From Gemmatimonadaceae bacterium (GTDB lineage: Bacteria; Gemmatimonadota; Gemmatimonadetes; Gemmatimonadales; Gemmatimonadaceae), in contig JACVCD010000001.1 of the NCBI GenBank assembly GCA_016742275.1, positions 1 through 64,000 of the forward strand: DNA of 64,000 bases, in the 5' to 3' direction. How positions within the stretch are numbered: position 1 is the stretch's first letter; every line of letters starts with the position of its first letter. The position numbers and the translations under genes were made by a program. Shown here piece by piece: positions 52,112 through 58,575 of the stretch. The notes beneath the pieces are model-generated. The model worked only from the letters and a program-made list of their open reading frames with translations. It was not told the origin of the DNA and did no database searches.

Positions 52112-53116
52112 CTATCGCACGTGCACGCGTTGCACGATGCGAATATCGAGCAGCATGGGGGCGGCGGTACCGGCGGGGCCCGGCGCCACTTCGCTCTGGA
52201 CGTCGAGCACGGTCCGCGCGTCCATGATCCAGGCACGCTCCCGATCCACGCGCATGTGTCCCTGAATGGTCCCCGCGGTCACCACACGCGTGCCGGCCGG
52301 CAGATCGCGAGCGGCACCATCCCGATGCAGCTTGCCATCGAGTGAGATCCAGGCCTGACGACCGTTGCGCGTCAGAGAGTCGAGCCGGAGACGCACCTGC
52401 ACCACTCCATCGGCGCGATAGCCGCTGACAGGCAGCGATGGCAGACGCATGTCCCGGGTCCATTCACTACCAACCGACACTGGTGCAGCGGGAAGGAGAC
52501 CAGGAATGGAAGCCAGCGCGGCGCCGAGATCCGCATCGGTGTCCGTCGACTCGATGACCCGCATGGCCCCATCGGGCGTGACCTTCATGCGCATCATTTG
52601 GCCCTGTACAGGCATGGACACGGGCCGCGCACCGTCGGGCGCATCACCGCTGCCGACAACAATCGAATCGGTTACTGCCCGGAGCGTGGTGTAGGCCAGA
52701 TCACTGGCTTCGACCAGACTTCGCGCAAACAGCTGAATGCGCGTACTGCGGGTGTTGGCACGCACGACGCGGGGCCCATACTCTGGTGTTGGCCGTTCTG
52801 TGCGCCGCGTATGCGGCGGAGTGCCCGCGCCACCGTTAGTTCCCGAAGCCGCTGGTTCGGGACGCCTGGCAGCACTGGTGACGGTTTGCTCGACCATGAG
52901 GTGCAGCGTGTCGCCCACCCTCGGGCGCACGATGAGACGCACGCCCTCGATGCTCGACGGACGTGGCGCACGTTGCGTTTGCCCTTGGGATTGCGTCTGG
53001 GCCTGTGCACGGCCCGGTGTCCCCAATACGACGGACGTCACCAGCAGCACGCACAACCCAGGGAACCCGTGGTTGGCACGGCCCCACCAGGACCGTAGTG
53101 CGGGGACGTCGTGCAT
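52112..53116 (-). CDS. Secreted protein of unknown function (DUF6263-like)
   Basis: The 334-residue protein has a signal peptide (LCVLLVTSVVLGTPGRAQAQ) followed by a Gln/Ser/Thr-rich stretch and beta-rich segments (GVRLIVRPRVGDTLHLMVEQ, SVGSEWTRDMRLPSLPV, VQVRLRLDSLTRNGRQAWISLDGKL). The pattern of a 'required time/scale' lipid-binding-like fold resembles DUF6263, but that is a weak call. It is divergent from a lipoprotein gene. Confidence 0.68.
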   Translation of the reverse strand: MHDVPALRSWWGRANHGFPGLCVLLVTSVVLGTPGRAQAQTQSQGQTQRAPRPSSIEGVRLIVRPRVGDTLHLMVEQTVTSAARRPEPAASGTNGGAGTPPHTRRTERPTPEYGPRVVRANTRSTRIQLFARSLVEASDLAYTTLRAVTDSIVVGSGDAPDGARPVSMPVQGQMMRMKVTPDGAMRVIESTDTDADLGAALASIPGLLPAAPVSVGSEWTRDMRLPSLPVSGYRADGVVQVRLRLDSLTRNGRQAWISLDGKLHRDGAARDLPAGTRVVTAGTIQGHMRVDRERAWIMDARTVLDVQSEVAPGPAGTAAPMLLDIRIVQRVHVR

Positions 53117-53271: not shown

Positions 53272-54225
53272 ATGCCCCTCTTGTTTCGTCCCCACCGAAA
53301 GACGCGACACCTCTCCGTGTTGCTGCTGCTTCTCGCTGGCGGATGTGATCGCATGCAGTCGGCACTCAAGGCTCCGGAAGGCGATCCGGTATGGCAGGGG
53401 GATAGTACCCTGCTGGCGAGCAAGCCGAACATTCTGTTTCGTGTGAATCGCAGCGCCAAGGGCGCCCAGGTCATTCCCATTGCCACCTTTGGTGACAAAG
53501 GATTTCGCCAGCTGGTACTCAGCGATCGCGGATGGCGGGCACTCGATCTGGTTTCGCTGAAGAGCGGAACGTCGCTCACGACCGTGCGCGGATCGGATCT
53601 GACGGGAAACGCGACCATTCAGCGCGGCATGTGGGAAGGCGCAGCGCTCGACACACTCGCGGGATGCCGGGTTCTGGTACCTGGTCCTCGGGCGAGCATT
53701 CTCGACGGAGTGGAACTGGCCATTCTCGGCGAGCGGCCCGCGCGCCCGAATTCCGGTGCGCTGCCTGACGGTGTGCTTGCACGCACGCTCGAGACCATCC
53801 CCACGCTCATTGCACCAACAAATGGCGTGCCGTTGTCCACCATACCGCGCTACCGTCGCCAGGTGTTCGTGGTACCGACCGGCGCAACGAATCAACCCAC
53901 GATTGTCGTGATCTACGATGATCCGGAAATCGTTTCCGACACGGTGCCGCTCTATCCGCCGCCGCGCCCACGCCACTTTGTTGTGGTGCTCGACAAGGGT
54001 ATCTACGGCTTCAAGCCGTCGCACACTTACACCACGCTCGGCAACAGCAAGACGCCACCACGTCGGGAATTTCTCGGCGCCATCGACACCGATGGAGATG
54101 GCAAGGCCGAATTGTTGTTTGGCATTCGGGATCCGCGCTACCCACTGGTTACCATGGGACTGCGTTTCCAGGTGGACTCGTGGGTCGACGCATTCACGTA
54201 TGAACGTCAACGCTGCCACGGCTGA
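53272..54225 (+). CDS. Lipoprotein, unknown function
   Basis: The 317-residue protein starts MPLLFRPHRKTRHLSVLLLL with lipobox LAGGC. It contains GTSLTTVRGSDLTGNATIQRG, EGAALDTLAGCRVLVPGP and a C-terminal DTDGDGKAELLFGIRD, an FG-GAP/EF-like Asp-rich loop. I do not recognise the family. The frame is open further upstream, but conservation and lipobox favour ATG 53272. Confidence 0.72.
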   Translation: MPLLFRPHRKTRHLSVLLLLLAGGCDRMQSALKAPEGDPVWQGDSTLLASKPNILFRVNRSAKGAQVIPIATFGDKGFRQLVLSDRGWRALDLVSLKSGTSLTTVRGSDLTGNATIQRGMWEGAALDTLAGCRVLVPGPRASILDGVELAILGERPARPNSGALPDGVLARTLETIPTLIAPTNGVPLSTIPRYRRQVFVVPTGATNQPTIVVIYDDPEIVSDTVPLYPPPRPRHFVVVLDKGIYGFKPSHTYTTLGNSKTPPRREFLGAIDTDGDGKAELLFGIRDPRYPLVTMGLRFQVDSWVDAFTYERQRCHG

Positions 54226-54233
54226 CCCAACAG

Positions 54234-54260
54234 ACATCGGCGTCTACTCGACGCCGATGT
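54234..54260. terminator. Eleven-bp perfect hairpin between convergent genes
   Basis: ACATCGGCGTC (54234-54244) pairs with GACGCCGATGT (54250-54260) around TACTC. It overlaps the last codons of the minus-strand regulator gene. No T tract follows on either strand. Confidence 0.6.
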
Positions 54261-54522
54261 CCCACGCCTGCTCGAGATCCGTGCGACTGTAGGTGCGAAA
54301 CGCCGTCAGCGTTTGTGTGCGGATGATACCGGGCACATTCGCGAACTCCTGCGTCACCACCGTCGCGATCTGTTCGAGATCCGGCACCCGCACGATCGCG
54401 ACGAGGTCCCACGCACCCGAAACGGAGTACACTTCGGCCACACCCTCAATGCCGGCGAGCGCTGTCGCACACGCCGTAATGCTCTTGGGATCGGCCTGCA
54501 CCAACACGATCGTGGTAATCAT
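54244..54522 (-). CDS. Stand-alone Lrp/AsnC ligand-binding (RAM) domain
   Basis: The 92-residue protein (ATG 54520-54522) is the ligand-binding half of Lrp/AsnC regulators: TIVLVQADPKSITACATAL, GVAEVYSVSGAWDLVAIVRV, IATVVTQEFANVPGI and TQTLTAFRTYS. No HTH precedes it, so it is a stand-alone RAM protein that may sense amino acids and form oligomers with full regulators. It precedes an aminotransferase gene on the same strand order, hinting at amino acid metabolism. Confidence 0.88.
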   Translation of the reverse strand: MITTIVLVQADPKSITACATALAGIEGVAEVYSVSGAWDLVAIVRVPDLEQIATVVTQEFANVPGIIRTQTLTAFRTYSRTDLEQAWDIGVE

Positions 54523-54590
54523 CGAGTGTGACTCCGAATGGGCACGCGAGTGAATGAACGGTTGAATTAATGCGGCAACGCGGCGAATGG

Positions 54591-55781
54591 TCAGGCCGTG
54601 AGACAGCGAGCGATGCGCGTCAGTCCTTCCACGGCCAGCTCCTGCTTGGTGGCATAACTCGCGCGAATCCATCCCGGCGTCCCGAACGCGCTGCCAGGCA
54701 CAACGGCAACCTGGTACTCCTCGAGCACCGCTGCTGCAAACGCGGCACCTGGATCTGCGGCACCACGAAAGCCTTCGACGTTCACGTAGATGTAGAACGC
54801 GCCCTCCGGGTGCACATAACGCACCGAAGGGAAAGCCTTGAGCGCCGTCACCACGGCGTCGCGCCGCGTGCGGAACGCAGCCACCATCTCACTCACTGCG
54901 GCATCCGCCTGCGCGACCTCACTCATGGCGGCGAGCGCCGCGTACTGCGAAACGGCCGCCGGATTGGACGTGGTGTGCCCCTGAAATGCCGTCATCGCCT
55001 TCGACAATGCCACCGGCGCGATGGACCAACCGATACGCCAGCCCGTCATGGCATAGGCCTTCGCCACGCCATTGATGACGATGAGATTGTCACGCGACGA
55101 TGCAATTTCGAGCGCCGACTGCGCACCCGTTTCGTAGGCAATGCGCAGATAGATCTCGTCGGCAATGACCCACCATCCGCGCTCCGATGCCAACGCCAAG
55201 ATGCTCGCGAGTTCTTCACGCGAATACACCGCACCGGTGGGGTTGCTCGGCGAATTCAGCATGAGGCCCTTCGTGCGCGGCGTGGCCGCCGCTTCCAGCA
55301 TCGCCGCCGTCACCTTGAGCGCGTTGGCCGGATCACCAGGCACCGCTACGCAGTTCGCACGCGCCAATTCAACCATCTCGAAGTAGCTCGTCCACGACGG
55401 CGTGGGAATAAGCACATCGTCACCTGGGCCGAAGCAGCACACGCAGGCATTGTACAGCGACTGCTTGGAGCCGTTGGAGACCACGACCTCGGCCGCGGTG
55501 ACCGGCGTGCCCTGCACCTGAATGCGATTGGCATCCGCCGCAATGGCCTCGCGAAGCGGCAGAATGCCCTCGGTATTGGTGTACCGGGTGGCACCGGCTT
55601 CAATGGCCTGCGCGGCGGCCTGGCGGATAAATGCCGGTGTGTCGAAGTCCGGTTCTCCGGCCCCCAGATCGATGACGGGAATGCCCTGCCCCTTGAGTGC
55701 CCGGGCTTTGGCCGCCACGGCGAGCGTGGCGGATTCCTTGAGTCGCGCGATGTTCGGGGACGGCTGGAAAGACAACGGCAT
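54591..55781 (-). CDS. Class I PLP aminotransferase (aspartate aminotransferase-like)
   Basis: The 396-residue enzyme shows IDLGAGEPDFDTPAFI, YTNTEGILPLREAIA, SNGSKQSLYNAC, NSPSNPTGAVYSREEL, VADEIYLRIAYE and GVAKAYAMTGWRIGW with the PLP Lys. Arg in the C-terminal GWIRAS is the carboxylate binder. The ADGANRIQV-region matches AspC-like aspartate/prephenate aminotransferases. The exact amino donor is not certain. Confidence 0.93.
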   Translation of the reverse strand: MPLSFQPSPNIARLKESATLAVAAKARALKGQGIPVIDLGAGEPDFDTPAFIRQAAAQAIEAGATRYTNTEGILPLREAIAADANRIQVQGTPVTAAEVVVSNGSKQSLYNACVCCFGPGDDVLIPTPSWTSYFEMVELARANCVAVPGDPANALKVTAAMLEAAATPRTKGLMLNSPSNPTGAVYSREELASILALASERGWWVIADEIYLRIAYETGAQSALEIASSRDNLIVINGVAKAYAMTGWRIGWSIAPVALSKAMTAFQGHTTSNPAAVSQYAALAAMSEVAQADAAVSEMVAAFRTRRDAVVTALKAFPSVRYVHPEGAFYIYVNVEGFRGAADPGAAFAAAVLEEYQVAVVPGSAFGTPGWIRASYATKQELAVEGLTRIARCLTA

Positions 55782-55970
55782 GACCGGTCGCAGGTTTGGA
55801 TTGGGAATTCGCCCCGGGATCGACTAGCTTTCGGGGATGGCCCGCCAGGTAGGGCCAGTAAGGTGCCGTCGCAATTAAGCGACCCCGACAAGCGGGCGCT
55901 ACGACGGCCGCAGGGCGCCAGACGGGCGCAACAAAGCCGGCGGTTGGGCCGCCGGGATGACTGACAACTG

Positions 55971-57956
55971 ATGGGGTGGGGCGTGAGCGAGCAGGAACGC
56001 GAAGAGACGTCGCCAGGGGCGACGCGCAGCCAGCACGTGGTGCTGCAAGGACCGACCGATATGCGGATGATGGCAGCCGCGATGCGTGCTGGTGTTGAAC
56101 GGAGCCGGGATGGTGGCGCTGATGCCGCTCCCGTGTGCCTCATCGTAACCCCCACAGCTGAGCAGGCCATTACGGCCGGCGACCAGGCCCGTCGTCTGTT
56201 GAGCGACACCACGGCCCGTGTGGTTCCCGTAACCGGCGCCGTGCGTGCGCGCCGCGTCCTGGCCTCTGGCCCAGTGGCCGTCGTCACCGGAACGGCTGCC
56301 GACCTGCTCACGCTGCGCCGCGATGCCGCACTCAATCTCGAGTCGCTGCAGGCCATCGTGATTGTCGGCCTCGACGACATCCTCGCCAACAACGGCAACG
56401 ATTCGCTCATTGCGTTGCTCGGCGATTCGCCCGACGACGTGATGCGTGCGGCTACGATCGACAGCGAGTCCGATGCAGTCGATGCGTTCCTCGAAGCCCA
56501 GCTTCGCCGCGCGCGTCGTATGGCGCCGCAGGTTATCGGTGACACGCCATTGGCGGTCACGCCGCGCTTCGTGATTACCTCCGCCACGGGCCGTGCTGAT
56601 GCACTCCGTGCGGTGCTCGACGAAGTGGATCCCCCCTCGCTGTGCGTGATTGCATCGACCGAGGGCGCGGTGCAGGACGCCACGCAGGCGCTGGCACGCC
56701 TCGGTGTGGTGATCGATGGTCTCAACGTGCAAGTCGTTCGTCAGCCCACCGCACAGCATGTCGCCATGACCGTGTTGTGGGACGCGCCCACCACGTTTGA
56801 TGCGCTGATTGCGGCGCTGGCCATGCGTCCCGTGGACGCAGTGGCGCTGTTGCTCGCCGACGAACTGCCCGCGTTCCGGCGCATGACGCATGGTATGGCG
56901 GAAGCCTGGACACCGGCCAGCAAGAAGGTCGCAGCCGAAGATCGTGTGCAGGTGTTGCGTACGGCGCTGCGTTCGACGCTGGCCAACGGCAACGCATCGG
57001 CTAGTGAGCTCGCACTCGTGGCACCGCTGCTCGATACGCATGATGCGGTCGAGATCGCATGCGCCGCTCTGCGTTTGTACGAAGGCGCACGTCGCGATGC
57101 GTTGAATGTGCGCGCCAAGGCTGCCGTGGCCGGTGCCAAGAGCACCATCCGCGAGCAGCGTCCCGACGCGCGTGATTCGCGCGATTCGGCGGCCCCTGCA
57201 GCAGCGGCCGCACGTCAGCGCGTCTTCCTCGGCGCCGGCAAGCGCGACAACGTGCGGGTTGGTGATATCGTCGGCGCGATCGCCAACGAAGCCGGCATCC
57301 CCGGTGATCGCATTGGCCAGGTGGATCTCTACGAGTCGCATGCCACTGTGGAATTGTCGGCCGAAGATGCTGCCAAGGTCGTGGACGCACTGCGTGACGC
57401 GTCGCTCCGTGGCCGCCGTCTGAGCGCGCGTATCGACGAGCGTAGCAATGAGCGCGGCGGCGAACGTGGTGGTGATCGTTTCGGCGGACGTGGCGGCGAC
57501 CGTGGCGGTGATCGTGGATCACGCGGCGGTTTTGGCGGTGGTGCTGGCCGCAGCTTTGGCGACCGTGGCCCGCGCAGTGATCGTGGCGATCGTGGACCGC
57601 GTTCGGATCGTGGTGATCGTGGTGATCGTCCGCCCCGCAGCTTTGATCGTGGCGAGCGCAGTGATCGTGGCGAGCGCAGTGACCGTCCGGATCGTGGACC
57701 GCGTGGTGGTTTCGGCGGCGGATTCGGTGGTGGCCGCGGCGGTGAGCGTGGTGGCAGCGATCGTGGTGGTGAACGTGGCGGCGATCGCTTCGGTAGCCGT
57801 CCGCCGCGTGCGTCAGACGAACGTCGCGCATTCGGGGATCGCTCACCGCGTGAGCGCGCCGAACCGCGTGGTGAATGGGCGGAGCGTGCGGACCGCATGA
57901 AGTTCGCCAAGCGTCCGCCGCGTCCGTCCAACTTCGAGCGCAACGACGGGGAGTAG
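55971..57956 (+). CDS. Degenerate DEAD-box protein with DbpA RNA-binding domain and RGG tail
   Basis: The 661-residue protein keeps the shape of a CsdA/DeaD-type RNA helicase, but its ATPase motifs are gone. Motif I (GxGKT) is replaced by [11 protein letters not shown]. Motif Ia reads [11 protein letters not shown], motif Ib TGTAADLL, and DEAD is replaced by VIVGLDDIL near residue 135. SAT survives in VITSATG, but motifs V and VI are absent. Residues about 415-487 ([21 protein letters not shown] and onward) are a clear DbpA-type RNA-binding domain. The last 150 residues are Arg/Gly/Asp repeats. It probably binds structured RNA without unwinding. GTG 55983 is an alternative start. Confidence 0.85.
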
Positions 57957-57963
57957 TCCCAGC

Positions 57964-58575
57964 ATGAGCGGCGGCTTTCAGGTTGCCGGCGGATGGATGG
58001 AAGTCATCGCCGGCGTGATGTTCAGCGGCAAGACGGAAGAGTTGTTGCGTCGGGTCAGGCGAGCCACCATCGCGCGGAAGCGCGTGCAGGTGTTCAAGTC
58101 GCATCTCGACGATCGTTATGCCGGCCTGTGGGCCGTCTCGAGTCATGACCGGCGTACGTTCGAAGCGACGCCGGTCGACTCCTCATCGCAGATCATGCTG
58201 CGTCTCGATCCGATGGCGCAGGTCATTGCCATCGACGAGGCACAGTTCCTCGATGCCGGAGTGGTTCAGGTGGCATCGAGTCTGGCCGATCGTGGCCGGC
58301 GAGTTATTCTCGCCGGCACCGATACGGATTTTCGCGGCGAACCATTTGGTGCCATGCCACAACTCATGGCAGTCGCCGAAATGGTGGACAAGCTGCACGC
58401 CATCTGCGTGCTATGTGGCTCACCAGCCAGCCGCAATCAGCGATTGATCGGCGGCAAACCCGCGCCATATGAATCACCGACCATCATGGTTGGTGCCGCC
58501 GATTCATACGAGGCGCGGTGCCGCGCCTGTCACATCGTTCCGCGTCGCGACGAAGCACAGCAATCGTTGTTGTAG
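57964..58575 (+). CDS. tdk: Thymidine kinase (type II)
   Basis: The 203-residue enzyme has the P-loop [28 protein letters not shown] and [10 protein letters not shown], plus a zinc site of two CxxC pairs (CVLC and CRAC). It phosphorylates thymidine, complementing the nucleoside phosphorylase at 34-36 kb. A GGGGAG lies before the ATG. It follows the degenerate helicase by seven bases and may be cotranscribed. Confidence 0.95.

Follow-up and report, generated by a model that had tools for sequence, protein, structure and literature searches.

Has a protein laid out like a DEAD-box RNA helicase, in which the residues of the enzyme are gone, simply decayed, or is it kept for another job? The question is raised by an open frame at 55971-57956 on the forward strand of the window, i.e., the whole stretch of 64,000 nucleotides of Gemmatimonadaceae DNA that was analyzed. 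Read from the ATG at 55971, which the initial annotation had taken as the start, the frame encodes 661 amino acids. In an alignment of relatives, the N-terminus V-x-EQERE is conserved among genus members, which makes the GTG at 55983 the likely real start of translation. The parts of the gene and its conserved neighbors are listed in Table 1. A 480-codon open frame also runs antisense to the gene (55899-57341, reverse strand) and is probably an artefact of high G+C content.

Table 1 Positions of the pseudohelicase gene, its parts and its conserved neighbors in the window.
Feature	Position	Strand	Remarks
Class I/II aminotransferase gene	54591..55781	-	Divergent upstream neighbor, conserved
Pseudohelicase gene	55983..57956	+	657 codons from likely GTG start
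RecA lobe 1 remnant	56028..56504	+	~Residues 20-178; DEAD-box RecA1 profile matches; weak model like Hera RecA1
Motif I (P-loop) position	56049..56081	+	11 residues replacing AATGTGKTAAF; GTGKT -> DMRMM
Motif II (DEAD) position	56364..56375	+	VGLD; IVGLDDI vs LDEADEM in intact helicases
RecA lobe 2 remnant	56511..56930	+	~Residues 181-320; without motifs V and VI
Helical segment	56931..57086	+	~Residues 321-372; aligned with CshA dimerisation domain; dN/dS 0.16
DbpA/DeaD-type RNA-binding domain (PF03880)	57219..57431	+	Residues 417-487; dN/dS 0.15
IGQV strand	57312..57323	+	Aligned with main-chain guanine-binding strand of YxiN and Hera
Arg/Gly-rich tail	57438..57953	+	Residues 490-661
Thymidine kinase gene	57964..58575	+	Downstream neighbor conserved in order

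The DbpA domain is the sole Pfam match in the protein (77.3 bits against a cut-off of 25.6), and NCBIfam yields a weak CshA match over residues 52-253. Orthologues were gathered from related genomes and 30 of them were aligned (alignments A1 and A2, the latter without the DbpA domain). Comparison of A1 by hhalign with intact DEAD-box proteins of the same bacteria, mainly DeaD, gave a probability of 100 and an E-value of 1e-42 over 455 collinear columns, a match that argues against chance and for a helicase origin, and that bears out the earlier statement of an alignment throughout with CsdA-type helicases. Searched against solved structures, the profile found DbpA (2e-22) and CshA (1e-19, through its C-terminal dimerisation helices) and also Hera and DeaD. 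The match to the CshA dimerisation helices came from the full profile; a phmmer search of the PDB with the short DeaD dimer segment alone, a query that only approximates the DeaD sequence, returned no match. The structure prediction proposed by the initial annotation as a check gave a poor AlphaFold model (two input sequences only, mean pLDDT 46.6), with which Foldseek listed DbpA helicases first (1.4e-5) and aligned Hera RecA1 at 3.8 A over 140 columns, which lends no more than soft support to a helicase-like fold.

The loss of motifs I, II, V and VI, recognized from the outset, holds on closer alignment. GTGKT and DEAD are replaced (Table 1), the arginines of motif VI (HRIGRTGR) are absent and motif V is unrecognisable, a single Arg aligning there. 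SAT (motif III) is likewise absent at the aligned positions, as is the Gln of the Q motif, and the window's order has lost the N-terminal Q-motif region. Judged by its residues, the protein is a helicase derivative without the catalytic residues, i.e., a pseudohelicase. Catalytic activity has almost certainly been lost, and so, probably, has ATP binding within the window's order.

The distribution of the protein was searched within the sampled phylum, where the A2 profile, at an E-value no weaker than 1e-35, matched 165 of the 172 genomes sampled from the window's order. As no intact DeaD of the listed order genomes scored better than ~4e-29, these matches represent the pseudo form; the remaining 7 genomes are mostly fragmented assemblies. 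The N-terminal profile matched none of the six sampled genomes of the other class, and the three that were searched individually contained no DbpA domain. In most of the order loci compared, the next gene downstream, on the same strand, encodes a thymidine kinase. Many order loci have a class I/II aminotransferase gene upstream in divergent orientation, and such a gene lies 2.3-2.5 kb upstream in the f4 and f5 loci of other orders. These shared neighbors support orthology. Neither neighbor was found at the f9 loci, so that f9 orthology is judged from sequence and tree alone. Further upstream in the window, a 142-residue Lrp/AsnC ligand-binding protein, in which no DNA-binding domain was detected, adjoins the aminotransferase (54244-54672, reverse strand), a pairing kept in several relatives. 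The open frames at 52112-53116 (reverse) and 53281-54225 (forward) are without any Pfam match; the former has relatives at several compared loci.

Rough dN/dS values, obtained by simple counting at a median dS near 0.9, gave genus medians of 0.27 for the core (RecA1 remnant 0.28, RecA2 remnant 0.26), 0.15 for the DbpA domain, 0.16 for the dimer-like helices, 0.55 for the linker and 0.21 for the tail. The core of intact DeaD has a value of 0.146, so the pseudohelicase evolves faster. The gene is retained under purifying selection. Conservation and dN/dS rule out a pseudogene or a frameshift, and the class-wide presence of the protein rules out a single odd copy.

We consider it probable that the protein is an ancient, vertically inherited pseudohelicase that has been kept for an ATP-independent RNA job as an RNA-binding chaperone or scaffold, probably as a dimer. 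Its line would have parted from a DEAD-box helicase of the DeaD/CsdA type no later than the base of the class; hydrolysis of ATP would have been lost and, within the window's order, probably the binding of ATP as well. The CshA-like helices could mediate dimerisation, RNA would be held by the DeaD-type RNA-recognition motif (RRM), by the Arg/Gly tail or by both, and the decayed RecA lobes would offer a binding surface rather than a motor. Such a protein might chaperone RNA without ATP, or it might be the scaffold on which RNA is matured or degraded. The initial annotation had proposed a non-enzymatic, helicase-derived RNA-binding factor; with the ATP site lost this is still the best reading, and its RNA binding is predicted from the domains.

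A different role is conceivable in those genomes that also encode an intact DeaD. A normal DeaD with a DbpA domain, whose presence had been left to be checked, is encoded in the window's genome (G000:C4:119132) and carries GTGKT, DEAD and HRIGR; two further strong DEAD-box matches are found in this genome. Two DbpA proteins occur in most genomes of the genus, an intact and a dead one wherever the pair was read. The pseudohelicase might thus be a dedicated regulator or cofactor of intact DeaD, forming mixed dimers via the dimerisation helices or recruiting or restraining DeaD on RNA. This proposal draws on the coexistence of both proteins in the window's genome and genus, on the dimer-type helices common to the two, and on the precedent of Utp25, which has been proposed to work in this way with partner helicases. 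Against this, the f2 and f3 genomes have one DbpA protein, the dead form, and the single DbpA protein of the f5 and f7 genomes read is likewise dead; an intact DbpA-bearing DeaD is absent from most f2, f3, f5 and f7 genomes checked.

Three genomes go further. In G031 (99% complete, 5 contigs), G037 (97%) and G190 (91%, one contig), all draft or incomplete, no DEAD-box match of the usual strength was detected. Their best matches carry DEIH, DEQH, DEAH or DEEH motifs and, from motifs and lengths, read as Lhr, RecG, RecQ, Mfd and PriA-like proteins. The absence of an intact DEAD-box RNA helicase would be unusual for bacteria. Normal DEAD-box proteins are present in G060, G072 and G182, and the pseudohelicase is kept in all six genomes. 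Since in three of them it persists without a detectable DEAD-box helicase, it is unlikely to be no more than a DeaD cofactor. An obligate DeaD partnership is made unlikely by the same genomes, and we regard the whole regulator or cofactor proposal as unlikely.

How the protein would bind RNA depends on the C-terminal parts. The DbpA domain, called nearly ideal before, is indeed intact, but it is nearest to the domain of E. coli DeaD/CsdA (5b88, 6.8e-7) and less near to the 23S-specific DbpA/YxiN domain. The I-G-x-I/V strand contacts guanine in YxiN and Hera, and Lys427 of YxiN reads the loop of hairpin 92. In the window's RRM, the I-G-x-V strand is kept and the position of Lys427 appears to be Asn, so the domain is not predicted to be specific for hairpin 92 of 23S rRNA; the earlier suggestion of an rRNA target finds no support here, and neither do those of a role in the cold response or in condensates.

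The long RGG/GDR tail described before is present (172 residues with 43 Arg and 46 Gly, 10 RGG and 9 GDR), but it is confined to the window's family and short or absent elsewhere, as in f2, f3 and most outer families; in the f2 and f3 proteins little sequence follows the RRM. The RGG tail was thereby ruled out as a defining feature. Several f1 genomes with a strong core match have no detectable DbpA domain, and six f1 members (L135, L142, L144, L147, L150 and L152) are without the RRM and have kept or enlarged a basic tail rich in Arg and Gly, as though the one module for RNA binding had taken the place of the other; both are present in the window protein. Since neither RRM nor tail is universal, it is not established that the core function is to bind RNA.

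These observations leave some room for a protein-protein scaffold, e.g., in ribosome assembly or the decay of RNA, with the RecA remnants as a conserved interaction surface and RNA binding as a secondary property. The core persists where the RRM is lost, and the position of the DEAD Glu is taken by a Trp, which looks like a newly constrained residue, in the majority of f2 and f3 members and, outside the genus, in the majority of f1 members. The tail of the window protein closes with a short conserved motif, EW(A/S/T)ER(G/A)(D/E)R(M/L)(K/R) (57873-57908), which recurs widely in the genus and in some of the family's other genera, with L139, L143, L146, L148, L149, L150 and L153 among the members that carry it; this EWxERxxR motif, conserved in part of f1, may be a docking motif and would suit such a scaffold. 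Against this, the strongest conservation in the genus falls on the RRM and the dimer-like helices, and the RRM-less members retain their basic tail. A primarily protein-binding role is therefore quite improbable in our view.

Returning to the preferred reading of an ATP-independent RNA factor, its relatives differ in how much of the ATP site is left. The motif table covers 102 pseudo members, which belong to eight families within the class. None of the 102 has the catalytic Lys and Glu together. Orthologues with all motifs intact, which by the initial annotation would have pointed to mere errors in this copy, do not occur among those tabulated. The f6 and two f9 members keep GSGKT, with VDGA, VDGV or VDGS as motif II (first Asp kept). 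In f4 and f5, GxG(S/A)G-type remnants without the Lys are found, in f7 the P-loop glycines are kept and the Lys is lost, and in f1, f2 and f3 the P-loop is lost; the RecA lobe 2 remnant is mostly deleted in f3. The motif VI arginines are lost across the tabulated members, bar isolated Arg residues that align by chance. Of note, DEAD survives in just one pseudo member (L131 and L201, both in the f7 genome G149), and there the P-loop reads GSGHE, without its Lys; this suggests different orders of loss in different branches. By these alignments the loss of the ATP site is graded, with GSGKT or a GxG remnant kept in some outer families and nothing kept in the window's order. A tree of 71 rows, built by a quick search and rooted at its midpoint only for display, has a branch with full support (SH-aLRT 100) that separates every pseudo member from every intact helicase, a pattern consistent with a single origin of the dead forms.

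That GSGKT and the leading Asp of motif II survive in f6 and two f9 members could speak for ATP or another nucleotide still being bound as a switch, without hydrolysis. The window's order retains neither P-loop nor arginine finger, and of DEAD both the first Asp and the Glu are missing; we hold such a switch to be very improbable. A decaying or mis-assembled copy without function, to which the lost motifs and the faster evolution relative to DeaD might point, is hardly credible: the frame is open in every relative retrieved, almost every order genome has an orthologue, selection is purifying and the neighbors are conserved.

More tentatively, this bacterial class may keep an ancient, ATP-free DEAD-box descendant as a core RNA factor, which in some genomes would be the last RNA protein of DEAD-box origin, and the steps by which the motor was taken apart may be read, in their order, from its living relatives. 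The family is apparently ancient, nearly universal in the order and spread through a class of soil and water bacteria (Gemmatimonadetes). With its natural series of motif-loss stages, it makes testable how a motor protein becomes a scaffold, and what the accessory parts of DeaD-type proteins (dimerisation helices, RRM and RG tail) do for RNA without ATP.

Pseudohelicases named in the literature include Utp25 (PMC9539457) and PriA of Deinococcus (PMC4504706); a literature search of partial coverage found no report of a bacterial DEAD-box pseudohelicase family. Among active enzymes, DeaD/CsdA, CshA and Hera share collinear homology with the pseudohelicase through RecA1, the RecA2 remnant, the dimerisation helices and the RRM, an RRM-type RNA-binding domain being present in DeaD/CsdA and Hera. 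Unlike these, the pseudohelicase is without P-loop, DEAD, SAT, motif V and motif VI. Utp25/Def, a pseudohelicase of the eukaryotic SSU processome, resembles it by description in its DEAD-box descent, vestigial motifs and conservation as a non-enzyme, but has an N-terminal accessory region, and a DbpA RRM and RG tail are not described for it (PMC9539457). PriA of Deinococcus radiodurans is a bacterial helicase that has lost ATP hydrolysis and kept nucleic-acid binding; it belongs to another helicase family and acts on DNA forks, and its loss of activity was measured (PMC4504706). The C-terminal half of human DDX21, with dimerisation helices, RRM (GUCT) and RG-rich tail, is built like that of the window protein, while DDX21 retains an active helicase core. 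This C-terminal set remodels RNA quadruplexes without ATP, its affinity coming mainly from the tail (PMC7721647), and the RRM and Arg-rich tail of Hera bind RNA without ATP (PMC3695512). By analogy with these two C-terminal sets, an ATP-free RNA role is plausible for the pseudohelicase.
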